A stretch of DNA of 58,038 nt, from NCBI GenBank assembly GCA_903863905.1, contig CAIPDT010000152.1, positions 1 through 58,038 of the forward strand. The letters are read 5' to 3'. This document shows, piece after piece, positions 584-43,040 of the stretch. Both the position numbers and the translations under genes were made by a program. A model generated the notes under the pieces. It was not told the origin of the DNA, did no database searches, and saw only the letters and a program-made list of their open reading frames with translations. Positions within the stretch are counted from its first letter, which is position 1. Each line of letters starts with the position of its first letter. The stretch comes from an uncultured Methylococcaceae bacterium. GTDB lineage: Bacteria > Pseudomonadota > Gammaproteobacteria > Methylococcales > Methylomonadaceae.

Positions 584-3500
584 TTAGTATTGGGCTGCCA
601 TTATCGGTTGTTTACCGAAACTTTGCACAAGGGTGAGTAAATCATCAATTTGTTGTTCGTTACTAAACAAACTGTCCAACTCGCCTAGCGCGGCAAAGGG
701 CATCTTATAAAGATGGTTAATTTCAATCGCGCCGCTTTGGGCTATCTGCCGTTTTAACAAACTTAAAAACTGTACTTGTCTTGCATTAAGACTGGGATAA
801 CGTTGAATAAAGTCGGCAAAGTGTTGATTAACAGTGTCGGCATTCATGCCCACGATAGAGCGCAGAATCTGTTCCAGTGGCGCGGCGGTATCATAAAAAC
901 TTTTCAAGATATTCAAGTCAATATCGGGATGTTGAATATGAATCAAAGCATTTAGGTTATCCAGTTCTTCTAGGCTAACAGCGGTGCCATTACGAATTTT
1001 TTGCAGAATCGGGTCTTGCTCAAACAAGTCTTTTAAAGCCTGCTCGACTTTAAGGCGATAACTCACCATATCGACGGCCTTTAAATAGGTACCTTGATGT
1101 TCTTTTATTTCAGCACTGTCGGTGACATCAATAATGGGAACCTCAGGACGTGGGTCGGTGCTTTTCTCAGAAAACTGCATGATACTGCGTAACTCAATGC
1201 GCACCTGTTCCAAGTCATCCAAGGAGGCAGTCTGCCACCAAGCCTGTTCACGGCATTGTTTAATAAGGCTGACCTTAGCTTTAACTTGATTCAGGTTCAT
1301 TTGTAAGCGCCAAAGTTTATTAATCGCCTCGCCCGTCAGATCCTCGGCGTTGGACTTGAGTAGTTTTTGTTGCTGAATTTGACTGATTAATAAATCCCAC
1401 TGATACGCATCACTGTGACCGCGAATATCCAGCCATTGCATCAACGGGGCTATCTCGGTTTCCTGTAAGATGACGGTATTGGCATTAAACTGACGAATGG
1501 TTTCTAAATCGCCCATCTGCCGTTTAACTTTCCACTTATCGCGCACCGCCAAGGTTTGATCATCAAGACTGTTAATGGTTTTGTGCAACCATTGTGCGAC
1601 ATCCTCAAAGAATTCCGGTTCAGCATGATGTAACGCTGTTTTAGCCAGCAGCAAACGAGCTTCAAATAACCGTTGCATCATGGCTTTAGGTTGGCTGATG
1701 GTCACTTCCCGCTGTTTCATACCGTGATATTCAACCACACCCCAATGATCGAATACCTGAAAATGGGTTTTGTGTTTACCGATACCCAGCAAGTTAAGGC
1801 ATAAACGCGTGCCTCGCCCGATCATCTGCCAAAACTTAACCGGCGATTTTACCGGACGCGCGAACACCAGATTGACAATTTCAGGGACATCAATGCCCGT
1901 ATCCAGCATGTCTACCGAAATGGCGATTGTCAATTGGTCGTTGCTACCCAAGCCCTTAAAATCATCTATTAAAGCTTCTGCACGCGGATCGTAATTATCA
2001 ATGACATGACAGAATTTACCCCCATATTGCGGATACAGCTCATCAAAGAGGCTTTCAAGAAGCTTGGCATGTTTATGATTGCGTGCAAACACAATGGTTT
2101 TACCTAAGGTCTGCCCATCCGCCTGACGAATGCCATTCTCCATCAGGTTTTGTAGAATTTTTCGATTCGTGTCTTTATTGTAAACGGCGCGGTCAATCTC
2201 TTGAGCGTCAAAATCAAGACTGTTCGGGTCAATGCCTTTGTCTTCAAGTTCGGCAATTTCTTCGGCGGTTAAGGCATGGCCTTTTATACCCTCACGCAGA
2301 AATTTGGTGGTGTGTTTTACCACCTGATACGGCACCAGATAACCTTCTTCAATAGCGGTTTCCAGTGTGTAATTACAGGTAGGTTCTTTAAAGTCACAGC
2401 CAAATAACTGACAGGTAGAACGACTAACCATTTCAACCGGCGTAGCGGTCAAGCCTACTTGCAGTGCATCAAAATAACGGAACAAATCGCCATAGATGTT
2501 ATAAACGCTACGGTGTGATTCATCGGCAATGATTAAATCAAAAAAGCCGGGATCAAACTTTTCAAATAATCGTATCATCGCGGGATAGGTAGCGATAAAA
2601 ATACGGTTATGTGAATCCTGTACGCTTTTACTGGTTAGAATAGTAATAGGCGCCGACAAAAATTCACTGTAAGCATTTTTAGCTTGTTTGCGTAACTCCC
2701 GACGATCGCAGACAAACAACACCCGCTTGACCCAGCCGGCTTGCATACACACATCAGTCAAGGCAATTGATAAGCGCGTTTTGCCCGTACCGGTGGCTTG
2801 CACGGCGAGAGCTTTGCGTTGTTTGGTTTCAAAGCGTTCGCAGATTCGTTTTAACGCTTCATGTTGATATAAGCGATCGCCCAAAATTTCAGTTTTAACA
2901 GAAACACTATTCAGCGGTTTACGTTCTGTGCGCTGACGGACTTGATATTGCAAACTGGACTTGGAATAAAAGCCATAAAGTTTACGCGGGGGATAATTTT
3001 GCTCTTGATGATCATCCCAAATCCAGATGTCATGACCATTGGTATAAAAAATAACCGGCCGCTGTCCATGAATTTTTTCTAAACCATCGGCATAGAACTT
3101 CGCTTGGTGTCGGCCTTTTTCGGCATCAACGGCAGTCTTTTTTGCTTCAACCACGGCCAGTGGTTTACCGTTATCATCCCATAATACATAGTCAGCATAA
3201 CCCTCTCCAGTTGGCGTGGGTTGATAGAGTACTTTTTCTTCTAGCGTGACTTGATGAGTGTTGTCTATTTCCCAACCAGCTTGTGCCAGTTGCAGGTCAA
3301 TCAACTGCTTACGGGTAGTCGCTTCATCAAAATGCAGATCATTAACTACTTGCTGGCCTTTAAAAGCGGCCTTTTGCTTAAGTTGAGTTAATTCTGCTTC
3401 GGTGTGTTCTCGTTGAGTCGCCTTTTCGCGCTCGGCAGTCAGTTCGGCTAGTAAAGCCTGCATCTGCGCTTCCTGTTTGGCATATTGCTCCAACAGGGCT

Positions 3501-3973
3501 TTACGTTCATTTTTATAATCGGCTTTAGCGGATGGGGGTGGCTTCGGTTGTTCAAAAGCTTTAATTGTGTTGATATCACCGTTGTTATAGGTAATAAACA
3601 GCCAACGGCCAAGATCAAAGGCTTCTTTTAACAACCATTGCGCACTTTGTTCCGTGACGGGGTCTCCATGAGCGGCTTTATTTCCATGAATACGAATCGC
3701 ATGAAGTTTATCGATCACTACTTTGGGGGTAACGGCTGCAAAAGCATCGTTACTCAGCAGTTCTATAAATTTAGACAGCGGCGTCCGAGGTAAACTCAAT
3801 TCACTATAAACGATATCCACACAACGCTCGGCAAAATTACGCAATTTAGTGTGTGCACTTTGCGGATCAGCTTGAACATACCGCTCTGCAAAACCCGCTA
3901 AACTAGCAAGTTCTGGCCAAGTGCCTCTAAGAAATTCAAAGTTTTGTGATTGCATAATATCTATTCTGTTCAT
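584..3973 (-). CDS. hsdR: Type I restriction enzyme, endonuclease/translocase subunit HsdR (EcoEI-like)
   Basis: The 1129-residue protein has an N-terminal DUF4145-like helical domain (about 1-140), a charged coiled-coil linker (150-205), the PD-(D/E)xK nuclease (D261, then E276-A-K278), and a superfamily 2 helicase motor. The motor shows Walker A ATGTGKT at 393-399, a DESH box, GLTATP, and an arginine-finger motif QMIGRGTRL. The C-terminal region resembles the EcoEI-type HsdR C-terminal domain. It cleaves unmethylated DNA after ATP-driven translocation, in complex with HsdM/HsdS. All core motifs look intact. The ATG at 3973 has a moderate AGAAGA ribosome site. A second in-frame ATG at 3955 (MQSQNFEFLRG) is also plausible, because a sigma-54-type promoter at 3986-4001 would start transcription only a few bases upstream of 3973. 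The upstream neighbour is a sigma-54 activator gene. Confidence 0.95.
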   Translation of the reverse strand: MNRIDIMQSQNFEFLRGTWPELASLAGFAERYVQADPQSAHTKLRNFAERCVDIVYSELSLPRTPLSKFIELLSNDAFAAVTPKVVIDKLHAIRIHGNKAAHGDPVTEQSAQWLLKEAFDLGRWLFITYNNGDINTIKAFEQPKPPPSAKADYKNERKALLEQYAKQEAQMQALLAELTAEREKATQREHTEAELTQLKQKAAFKGQQVVNDLHFDEATTRKQLIDLQLAQAGWEIDNTHQVTLEEKVLYQPTPTGEGYADYVLWDDNGKPLAVVEAKKTAVDAEKGRHQAKFYADGLEKIHGQRPVIFYTNGHDIWIWDDHQEQNYPPRKLYGFYSKSSLQYQVRQRTERKPLNSVSVKTEILGDRLYQHEALKRICERFETKQRKALAVQATGTGKTRLSIALTDVCMQAGWVKRVLFVCDRRELRKQAKNAYSEFLSAPITILTSKSVQDSHNRIFIATYPAMIRLFEKFDPGFFDLIIADESHRSVYNIYGDLFRYFDALQVGLTATPVEMVSRSTCQLFGCDFKEPTCNYTLETAIEEGYLVPYQVVKHTTKFLREGIKGHALTAEEIAELEDKGIDPNSLDFDAQEIDRAVYNKDTNRKILQNLMENGIRQADGQTLGKTIVFARNHKHAKLLESLFDELYPQYGGKFCHVIDNYDPRAEALIDDFKGLGSNDQLTIAISVDMLDTGIDVPEIVNLVFARPVKSPVKFWQMIGRGTRLCLNLLGIGKHKTHFQVFDHWGVVEYHGMKQREVTISQPKAMMQRLFEARLLLAKTALHHAEPEFFEDVAQWLHKTINSLDDQTLAVRDKWKVKRQMGDLETIRQFNANTVILQETEIAPLMQWLDIRGHSDAYQWDLLISQIQQQKLLKSNAEDLTGEAINKLWRLQMNLNQVKAKVSLIKQCREQAWWQTASLDDLEQVRIELRSIMQFSEKSTDPRPEVPIIDVTDSAEIKEHQGTYLKAVDMVSYRLKVEQALKDLFEQDPILQKIRNGTAVSLEELDNLNALIHIQHPDIDLNILKSFYDTAAPLEQILRSIVGMNADTVNQHFADFIQRYPSLNARQVQFLSLLKRQIAQSGAIEINHLYKMPFAALGELDSLFSNEQQIDDLLTLVQSFGKQPIMAAQY

Positions 3974-3985
3974 AGCATTCTTCTA

Positions 3986-4001
3986 AGCGAAGAACGTGCC
4001 A
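3986..4001 (-). promoter_or_regulatory. Candidate sigma-54 (-24/-12) promoter of hsdR
   Basis: On the minus strand this reads TGGCACGTTCTTCGCT, against the consensus TGGCACG-N4-TTGCW. The GG (4000-3999) and GC (3988-3987) are separated by the required 10 bases, and only one base of the -12 element deviates (TCGC for TTGC). It lies in the 32-base gap between the stop of the sigma-54 activator gene (4006) and the hsdR start (3973). Predicted transcription start is about 3975. Judged by eye, not scored. Confidence 0.6.
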
Positions 4002-4005
4002 ACTT

Positions 4006-5730
4006 TTATTGAACATCCAGTTTTTCTATCCAGTTTGATAAGGTCTGATAGTTAGGCAACCCCAAAAGCACGGTTGCTTCTTTCTTGTTTCCTGCCACTT
4101 TTTTAAGTGCCATGGTGATATATTTTCTTTTTATATCATCTAAAATTTGTTGTAGATCAATGCCATCACCGATTTCAGGCAATTCACTAGATATACTTTG
4201 TTTGGGCCGTTCGATCATCGCTTCTTTGATATCGATTTCGGTTATTTGTTCGGTATCGGCCCATATTGATGCCCTCAACAAAGTACCCTGCAATTCTCTG
4301 ATGTTACCCGGCCAAGAGTGACTCAATATAATATTTTTTGCTTTAACAGAAATTTTTTTATTAATGTAACCCGGCTGACTAGAAGCCTCTTGATTGATCT
4401 TTTCCATCAAATAATCGGCCAGCATGGCAATATCACCATTTCTTTCCCTTAAGGGTAGCAAAGTTATAATACCTATCGCTACCCGATAAAATAAATCTTC
4501 CCGAAAACGACCATTGACTACATCGGCAGCTAGGTTTCGATTAGTGGCAGCAATAATACGGACATCAACTTTTGTTGAACGACTATCACCCACTTTACTT
4601 ATTTCGCCTGATTGCAGTACCCGCAACAACCTGACTTGCGCATCCTCTGGTAACTCACCAAATTCATCAAGAAACAAAGTGCCGCCATCTGCTGCTTCAA
4701 AGTAACCGACTTTGTTATTGATTGCTCCTGTAAAAGCGCCCTTTACATGACCAAACAACTCGGAATCAATCAGTTCCTTAGGGATTGCGCCACAATTGAC
4801 CGTTACAAAAGGTTTGCCCTGACGCAAACTTGTATTGTGTATTGCCTTAGCAAAAAGCTCCTTTCCAGTCCCCGATTCCCCCATGATTAACGCTGGTACA
4901 TCGCGTACAGCAATTTTCTCGGCTTTTTGTATGGTTCGTATTGTTTCTGGATTCTGGGTGATAATATCAGAAAAAGCGGCGGATAAGGGGGCTTCTGAAT
5001 AAGATAGTTCTGTTAATTTTTTATCGGCTTTTTTGACTAATTGGGGGATAAATTCTGCGGAAATATCAAAGGGTATAGTGACAAATTCGCCACCTCGCTC
5101 CTTAGTGGACTGAACAAACCGAGTATTATATTTAGTCTTACCCAACAATATCGATACGGCTGTCATTGATGGCGTTCCGGGTGATAAATGAATACTGATA
5201 TCCACTAGCGGTTGCGTGGTGGTTAGTTTTTCGAGGTAACCATCCATAGCGCGGTGTATATCACCAAAATCAATAGGAGATCGTAACGTACATTTATTTA
5301 GAACTACTTTTATTTCTGACAATCCAGCAAGCCATCTTACATAAGCATCCGCTTTTGGTGCTTTACTATCTAAACCAGTTGTTTCTCTACCTAAACCACA
5401 TGCTTCACTAACCAAACCACCTGTTTCTCTACCTAAACCACATGCTTCACTAACCAAACTACCTGTTTCTTTACCTAAACCACCTATTTCTCTACCTAAA
5501 CCACGTGATTTACTAACCAAACCAGCTGTTTCTCTACTTAAACCACATGCTTTACTAACCAAACCAGCTGTTTCTCTACCTAAACCACATGCTTCACTAA
5601 CCAAACCAGCTGTTTCTCTACCTAAACCACATGCTTCACTAACCAAACCAGCTGTTTCTCTACCTAAACCACATGCTTCTCTAACCAAACCACATGCTTC
5701 ACTAACCAAACCACATGCTTCACTAACCAA
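4006..5730 (-). CDS. RtcR-like sigma-54-dependent activator with truncated CARF-like sensor and N-terminal heptad array
   Basis: The 574-residue frame opens at a TTG inside a tandem array. Residues 2-120 are seventeen 7-residue repeats alternating VSEACGL and GRETAGL types. Residues about 121-235 resemble the C-terminal part of a CARF (Rossmann-type) ligand-binding domain: the [10 protein letters not shown] segment at 181-190 is the typical CARF strand-loop motif, also present in RtcR-type regulators. The sigma-54 AAA+ domain is intact: Walker A GESGTGKE (284-291), GAFTGA sigma-54 contact loop (331-336), Walker [10 protein letters not shown] (351-359), FREDLFYR, and [10 protein letters not shown] Fis-type helix-turn-helix closes the protein (about 533-570). 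The first strand-helix-strand of the CARF fold seems to be missing and replaced by the array; this is inference from family memory. It lies directly upstream of hsdR on the same strand and is divergent from the gene at 5944. The real translation start is uncertain. Confidence 0.82.
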
Positions 5731-5757
5731 ACCAGCTATTTCTCTAGCTAAACCACC
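5371..5757 (-). repeat. Tandem 21-bp array (42-bp A/B period) inside the 5' end of the activator gene
   Basis: About 18 units of 21 bp, mostly alternating between two types. On the minus strand, type A encodes GLVSEAC and type B encodes GLGRETA, so the higher-order period is 42 bp. One degenerate unit (encoding LAREIAG) extends upstream of the TTG start. Since 21 is a multiple of three, any gain or loss of units keeps the reading frame. Third-position and second-type substitutions are scattered through the array, so it is not freshly expanded. Confidence 0.9.
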
Positions 5758-5943: not shown

Positions 5944-6558
5944 ATGAAGCAAACTAAAGTACTACTTAGTTTTTTTAAGTTCCCCATCGCAACCAGAATT
6001 ATCTTTTATCGTAGCGTCATCAGTCAGTTAACGGGCAACCCTAACTTCTTAGTGCCTTCAGTTTCTTTAGATTTGGCAACCGCCACTGTAGATAAACTTG
6101 AGCAGTATAGTGTCGCGGCCAGAGGTGGCACACATCTTACCATTGCTAATCGGAATGATGCCGAAAAAGCAGCCAATGCAATCTTTCGGAGTTTAGCCAG
6201 TTATGTAGAATTTATTGCTTTAGGGGATGAAACGATTATTATCAGCAGTGGTTTTTCGCCCACTAAACAACCTGCACCGCATCATAGAAGCATCTTAACG
6301 GTTGTGCATGGCTCACATTCTGGCAGTCTTAAGTTTTCAACAGCAAGAAGCCTTAAAGCTAAAGCGTGTATGTGGCGCTTGCGTAAAGTATCTACGACAG
6401 GTATTGATAATCCATGGATTCCTATTGCAACGACAACACAAACCAAGTATGAGGCCACCGGTCTTGATCTTGGCGTGGCCTATGAAGTATCAGTTGCAGA
6501 TGTAACCTCAGAAGGTATCACTGATTATTGCCTACCTGTCAGCATTATCGTTATTTAA
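5944..6558 (+). CDS. Orphan protein with a C-terminal fibronectin type III-like segment
   Basis: A 204-residue frame with a strong ribosome site (AAGGAGA, 5932-5938) ahead of ATG 5944. There is no signal peptide or clear membrane segment. The N-terminal half (about 1-115) is not recognised. The C-terminal part (about 125-204) has a pattern that suggests a single fibronectin type III-like beta sandwich: KACMWRLRKVST, then W, then TTQTKYEATGLDLGVAYEVSVADV, ending in LPVSIIVI. That assignment rests on the W...YEATGL...Y.V..V spacing only. It is transcribed away from the sigma-54 activator gene and shares its upstream region, so the activator may control it, but no sigma-54 promoter was seen. No function is assigned. 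Confidence 0.7.
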   Translation: MKQTKVLLSFFKFPIATRIIFYRSVISQLTGNPNFLVPSVSLDLATATVDKLEQYSVAARGGTHLTIANRNDAEKAANAIFRSLASYVEFIALGDETIIISSGFSPTKQPAPHHRSILTVVHGSHSGSLKFSTARSLKAKACMWRLRKVSTTGIDNPWIPIATTTQTKYEATGLDLGVAYEVSVADVTSEGITDYCLPVSIIVI

Positions 6559-6718: not shown

Positions 6719-8983
<2,265 letters not shown>

Positions 8984-42639: not shown

Positions 42640-43040
42640 TCAATTCTTGACGACTGTGATGGCATAAAGCACCTGTATGACCCCATTCGAGACGTCTCTG
42701 ATTGCATAAAGCACCTGTATGACTCCATTCGAGACGTCTCTGATTGCTTGATCTACGTCTAAAACCCCATTCGAGACCTCTCTGATTGCATAAAGCACCT
42801 ATATGACTCCATTCGAGACGTCTCTGATGGCTTGATCTACGTCTAAACCCCCATTCGTGGCGTCTCTGCTTACTTGATATACCAGTAAAGCCCAATCCGA
42901 GACGTCTCTGATGGCATAAAGCACGTATATGACTCCATTCGAGATTTCTCTGATTGCATAAAACACGTATTAAATCCATTGCGTGACCGCTCTGATTAAC
43001 TGAAGCACCGATCAGATTCATTCCGACACCACGCTCTTTT
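42640..43040 (-). repeat. Tandem array of about nine 42-bp units with alternating variable halves
   Basis: On the plus strand each unit has a conserved core of about 20 bp (ATTCGAGACGTCTCTGATT) and a variable half of about 23 bp that falls into two main types: one beginning GCATAAAGCACCTGTATGA (units 1, 2, 4, 7, 8) and one beginning GCTTGATCTACGTCTAAA (units 3, 5, and in part 6). Outer units are degenerate. Because 42 is divisible by three, an open minus frame of 132 codons (42623-43021) runs through it with a 14-residue period (LCNQRRLEWSHTGA type); no ribosome site or domain supports a real protein. Confidence 0.85.

Follow-up and report, generated by a model that had tools for sequence, protein, structure and literature searches.

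Can type I restriction be switched on by an alarm signal? Such systems are usually regarded as permanently present and as held in check at a stage that follows translation. In the window analyzed here, a 58,038-nt stretch of contig CAIPDT010000152.1 from an uncultured Methylococcaceae bacterium, a gene for an RtcR-like sigma-54 activator lies directly in front of hsdR and hsdM. A first, sequence-only reading of this DNA proposed that a promoter between the two could allow restriction to be induced on demand by an RNA- or nucleotide-derived signal. Comparison with related loci indicates that, in methane-eating bacteria and related organisms, a conserved, putatively alarm-sensing activator and a sigma-54 promoter precede a defense operon. 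Ligand-induced restriction has good support as a property of the lineage, but not of the window copy, whose sensor is truncated. We put the probability at roughly three in four that intact members of the family form a regulated-defense module and that ligand-gated control has probably been lost in the window copy.

The window locus and its -24/-12 site

The activator open reading frame (ORF) contains the GAFTGA motif and matches the Pfam Sigma54_activat family (E = 4.6e-67) together with the AAA lid (Table 1). It matches the PADLOC profile PDLC01995 (RtcR_PspF2, CARF_AAA_HTH) at E = 5.6e-178, over profile positions 42 to 480 of 481 only, and scores 319 bits against the NCBIfam RtcR equivalog, for which the cut-off is 650 bits. 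HsdR and HsdM match type I restriction-modification (R-M) family models in Pfam, NCBIfam, and PADLOC; hsdM is partial, and no close match to its remainder was found elsewhere in the assembly. An rpoN gene was found in the window's genome. Neither rtcA nor rtcB adjoins the activator, whose neighbors are hsdR and hsdM, and the genome's RtcB match lies on another contig. The defense locus is also adjoined by an ORF at 6719-8962, which we take to be catalase-peroxidase-like.

Table 1. Features of the activator-hsdR-hsdM locus (window positions)
Feature	Position	Strand	Remarks
hsdM, first 186 aa	1..558	minus	ended by contig edge
hsdR	584..3973	minus	1129 aa, ORF without interruption
Predicted transcription start	3975	minus	predicted with C of GC as -12
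-24/-12 sigma-54 promoter element TGGCACG-TTCT-TCGCT (predicted)	3986..4001	minus	one mismatch to consensus, conserved in relatives
Activator ORF, RtcR_PspF2-like	4006..5730	minus	574 aa from TTG; AAA+ and HTH present, CARF truncated
Fis-type HTH	4054..4143	minus	HTH_8 E 0.0035, 17.5 of 22 bits, under Pfam cut-off
Sigma-54 interacting AAA+ domain with lid	4195..4965	minus	Pfam
Residual CARF, alpha2 to beta6, with LSPGTPSM loop	5041..5355	minus	alignment mapped on L035 predicted secondary structure
21/42-nt tandem repeat array, 18.6 x 21 nt	5366..5756	minus	in frame with activator, replaces CARF residues 1-55
Upstream neighbor, 204 aa, no assigned function	5944..6558	plus	marks same locus in genomes G017 and G033

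Both elements named by the sequence-only reading are in place: the GAFTGA-bearing activator ends at 4006, and after a gap of 4 nt the minus strand carries a near-consensus -24/-12 site, TGGCACGTTCTTCGCT (4001-3986), which differs from TGGCACGNNNNTTGCW by one mismatch and faces hsdR-hsdM. Across the 58-kb window, matches with at most three mismatches numbered 67 against 74.9 expected from shuffles, and three of them had a single mismatch. The total is as chance predicts, and a match of this quality is by itself nothing unusual in the window. For the short stretch behind the window activator, none of 300 shuffles reached an equally good core site, and the comparison with relatives described below indicates that the window site is more than a chance match. 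A dyad search for an enhancer near the hsdR promoter or in the 3'-terminal part of the activator gene returned nothing convincing; the pentamer dyads common to most loci were AT rich and restricted to Marinomonas.

Conservation of the site across activator and hsdR loci

Scanning genome contigs with the CARF part as the query yielded 20 loci. The activator is followed on the same strand by hsdR and hsdM in 12 of them (hsdM being partial in L041 and L048) and by TerY-P-type genes plus an SF1 helicase gene in three (L038, L049, and L050). Three loci (L040, L042, and L053) have no co-directional gene next, and in the other two (L046 and L047) the activator is cut or broken and hsdR gave no match. 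A class-wide search found a strong family match (E <= 1e-128) in 7 of 369 genomes and thereby added 5 to the set. In these five, three activators precede hsdR and two precede vWA and PP2C genes, with two other ORFs intervening in L105. Pfam confirmed vWA and PP2C in all five loci of this kind, and a kinase in the three that were tested. Of the 26 loci with co-directional cargo, 21 carry type I R-M genes and 5 carry vWA-PP2C genes (TerY-P type). Methylotuvimicrobium buryatense 5G has an intact locus (L034).

A GG-N10-GC core site with at most two mismatches was present in 26/26 loci with co-directional cargo and in 0/3 without, among 29 activator loci scored (L046 and L047 left out; the L070 value taken from the hsdR-homologue comparison, and the other 25 scored together). 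The 26 include the window and other damaged activators (L041 and L100), and they include close kin (L044, L051, and L052; L045 and L048), so they do not represent 26 independent events. Shuffled sequence equaled the real site in 5 to 8 of 300 trials for L049, L104, and L106 and in 0 to 2 of 300 for the other 22 scored. The gene pair and its site are conserved in relatives, where the sequence-only reading had suggested looking for them, which favors that reading at the level of the family.

The hsdR homologues supplied a natural control. A homologue at E <= 1e-150 was found in 30 of 200 relatives, two of the loci (L066 and L072) being without the hsdR 5' end. All 11 hsdR genes with at least 42% identity (that of the window included) carry the core site, with at most three mismatches, 24 to 28 nt before the start. 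Seven have an activator upstream (in two pieces in L068), two retain a C-terminal activator stub alone (L062, and L067, where the stub was spotted by eye), and two (L061 and L065) have no activator in the flank. By the same threshold, the core site was found in 0/17 distant hsdR genes (33 to 39% identity) and an activator match in 0/17 of their flanks, six of which are shorter than 1 kb, that of L082 being only ~90 nt. Within the close clade, sites without an activator have 2, 2, 2, and 3 mismatches, and of the seven with one, six have a single mismatch and the other has two; permuting the labels gave an equally extreme split in 4 of 330 cases. Because 15 of the 25 sites in the activator-locus scoring also have two mismatches, and L041 holds a two-mismatch site behind a broken activator, promoter decay following activator loss is a hint only.

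The position of the site relative to hsdR is also conserved. In sigma-54 promoters, the C of the GC element is counted as -12. From the start predicted on this basis, the first ATG of the window hsdR (3973) lies at +3 and the second in-frame ATG (3955) at +21. In 18 of 18 scorable sequences (25 given), the first ATG falls at +2 to +4 from the predicted start. The next in-frame ATG comes at +20 to +22, and any Shine-Dalgarno match before it is 3 nt long. These positions come from a script that ignores ATGs ahead of the predicted +1 and whose pattern leaves L070, L071, L100 to L103, and L106 outside. By eye, the first ATG is at +2 or +3 in L071, L100, L101, and L103, and the second is closer, at +17 or +18, in the last three of these. 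The first ATG thus stays at +2/+3 while the second shifts, which argues that the first is the position held in place. Longer leaders occur in L102 and L106, which have another hsdR type, and in the TerY-P loci. For the close hsdR clade, the transcript is predicted to begin 1 to 3 nt before the first ATG and would therefore be near-leaderless.

Similar activators precede different cargo. Marinomonas piezotolerans has two that are 85% alike, one preceding hsdR (L048) and the other TerY-P-type genes and a helicase gene (L049), and the L038 activator is 73% identical to that of L035 yet precedes TerY-P-type genes. In genome G101 (L068 and L100), the main piece of the activator shares 78% identity with the L035 activator, and hsdR is 45% identical to that of the window. 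Judged from such pairs, activator and promoter look like a cassette whose cargo can be exchanged. An AT-rich dyad ~100 nt ahead of the activator start was seen in 4 of 10 relatives whose upstream region was examined (L035, L036, L037, and L100; 0 to 3 mismatches to the L037 copy); L039 has only four-mismatch versions, and none was seen in the other relatives examined or in the window. As a lead only, this dyad is a candidate operator of the activator gene.

The CARF sensor and its truncation in the window copy

The N-terminal 160 residues of the activator from an intact relative, L035, gave a predicted structure with a pLDDT of 90, and its 40 PDB matches at E <= 0.001 are CRISPR CARF proteins, e.g., Csm6, Card1, Can2, and ring nucleases. 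In this model, the sensor of L035 folds as a Rossmann-like CARF domain. The case from sequence alone is weaker than that from structure: the Pfam Csm6 CARF model matched 16/16 members at E <= 1 (best, 0.00087) and the Pfam RtcR CARF model 12/16 (best, 0.00034), the latter under its cut-off in L035 and with no match in the window's genome, and a search among solved structures by sequence, with an alignment of the CARF region as the query, gave only weak hits (phosducin-like, 0.08; Csm6, 0.52). A full-length structure model, with a pTM of 0.47, served for secondary structure alone.

The description of the activator as CARF type is borne out by its intact relative, but the sequence-only reading missed that the window copy is without the first ~55 CARF residues. 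Alignment with relatives places the loss at residues 1 to 55 (beta1-alpha1-beta2) together with the native start; the G044 activator carries the missing residues. Strands 1 and 4 are where CARF domains are conserved (Makarova et al. 2014, PMC4012209). With beta1-alpha1-beta2 and the native start gone, the window protein is unlikely to sense an RNA or nucleotide alarm. The dN/dS of the activator body on the window branch is low, 0.03 to 0.07, with dS saturated and several pairs without an estimate. This ratio indicates that the body was under selection for much of the branch, but given the saturation it gives no date for the fusion, and it is compatible with present function without showing that the fused protein works.

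The missing residues are replaced by the repeat array, which encodes the first ~122 aa of the activator ORF and holds its only in-frame starts, all TTG; the fusion falls in a repeat within a draft assembly. Upstream of the array, three overlapping sigma-70-like matches lie on the minus strand at 5948-5867, where the two strands together have 5 such matches and 1.2 would be expected, so transcription of the fused ORF is quite possible. Related arrays lie elsewhere in the genome (G000:C31:6722-7002 and G000:C29:172-262) and in L057 and L058, and the array occurs in 3 of 35 genomes of the genus, the window's own included. In G017 and G033, it adjoins the same upstream gene as in the window, and its copies contain stops. 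At this locus, only the end of the activator remains ahead of the site and hsdR in G017, and in G033 the loss takes in the activator and part of hsdR. In the window, a deletion beside the array would account for the loss of the start and of beta1-alpha1-beta2.

The array is dispersed in the genus, and two genomes have deletions of unequal extent reaching into the same defense locus beside it. A second tandem array in the window (42649-42998; periods of 42, 84, and 126 nt) overlaps a 132-aa ORF. L041, on a Comamonadaceae MAG contig, has an hsdR 90% identical to that of the window in a bin of another order, as would result from misbinning or from recent transfer; the activator there is broken, and its match starts near CARF residue 60.

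Control of restriction and relation to known systems

In intact members, the CARF domain would repress the AAA+ domain until a ligand binds. By analogy with RtcR, whose CARF domain binds 5' tRNA halves with a cyclic phosphate end (PMC7790460), this ligand is probably a damaged-RNA or nucleotide product. The released activator would then remodel sigma-54 polymerase at the -24/-12 site and turn on hsdR-hsdM from a near-leaderless transcript. Gene order, the promoter, the CARF fold, and the presence of rpoN all speak for restriction that is inducible by alarm in the family; for the window copy, the truncated CARF domain speaks against it. There, a deletion beside the array would have joined the repeats in frame to what remains of the activator. 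As our first choice, the fused activator would hardly be made and would be uninducible; if made, it might be active constitutively, as RtcR is when its CARF domain is absent.

The latter outcome, in which loss of half of the repressing domain leaves restriction always on, is possible but in our judgment unlikely. RtcR lacking CARF is indeed constitutively active (PMC9650030), and the window protein has its AAA+ and HTH parts present and in frame, an activator body with low dN/dS, promoter-like sites upstream of the array, and an intact sigma-54 site to act on. However, it has only TTG starts, all within the array, half a CARF domain may misfold, and G017 and G033 have lost the activator at the same locus. 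It is very improbable that the window protein still senses its ligand, with the array serving as its new N terminus and what is left of the CARF pocket (SPGTP loop) being enough: the LSPGTPSM loop is retained, but strand 1, one of the two strands at which CARF conservation sits (PMC4012209), is gone, and the array belongs to a dispersed repeat whose copies in G017 and G033 contain stops. That the -24/-12 match is a chance one and hsdR is read from another promoter is extremely unlikely and was dropped on comparison of loci, since, although the window has three one-mismatch matches and a total as chance predicts (a count insufficient by itself to drop the idea), the position and core are kept across hsdR genes down to ~40% identity and the site is absent where the activator lacks co-directional cargo and from distant hsdR genes without an activator.

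The preferred reading, a regulated module in intact members with ligand gating lost in the window copy, could be extended to a scheme in which RNA or ribosome damage gates restriction twice in this lineage: once through the CARF activator, as a sensor of damaged RNA, and the sigma-54 promoter and again through a (near-)leaderless hsdR mRNA translatable during attack by damaged or 70S ribosomes, with sensor loss beside arrays in some Methylobacter fixing the otherwise inducible operon on or off. We consider this extension speculative and improbable.

The family shares with RtcR, the activator of rtcBA, its domain order, sigma-54 AAA+ domain, CARF fold, and a neighboring sigma-54 target operon. 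It differs in that RtcR targets RNA repair, whereas the targets here are restriction or TerY-P genes, and in that the window copy is without half of the CARF domain. All 17 aligned members match RtcR_PspF2 (PDLC01995), but all 17 match sister RtcR models too, and the ranking among these models is known for L035 and the window only. RtcR-like CARF-AAA-HTH proteins were reported to lie often beside R-M genes, with sigma-54 activation of downstream genes predicted (Makarova et al. 2014, PMC4012209); the association is the same as here, and the available text of that paper gives no promoter site or hsdR start geometry. RtcR homologues also lie upstream of defense genes with type I R-M in CoCoNuT superoperons, where TerY-P is among the cargo as well; the available text mentions promoters once and leaderless transcripts never (PMC11090510). 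Our loci resemble those superoperons in the UPF1-like SF1 helicase match after the TerY-P triad in L038, L049, and L050 and differ in that most consist of activator-hsdR-hsdM. Family matches of HsdR and HsdM are shared with ordinary type I R-M systems (EcoAI/EcoEI-like hsdR), but here an activator and a sigma-54 promoter stand in front, and the 17 distant hsdR genes have neither.

The claim that no described type I system has this arrangement was therefore too strong, given the R-M association in PMC4012209 and the superoperons in PMC11090510. A partial literature search found no description of the -24/-12 promoter or of a near-leaderless hsdR, and in one paper on RpoN hsdR appears solely in strain genotypes. 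In the literature covered, then, the R-M association dates from 2014, and no published account was found of the promoter's conservation, of its geometry, or of a natural truncation of the sensor.

Because the sigma-54 promoter is conserved, yet missing from loci whose activator lacks co-directional cargo, the idea of restriction on demand can be tested directly. The comparisons point to a sensor-plus-promoter cassette common to type I R-M and TerY-P-type operons, and the window copy, as a natural CARF truncation, would be useful for asking what role the sensor plays.
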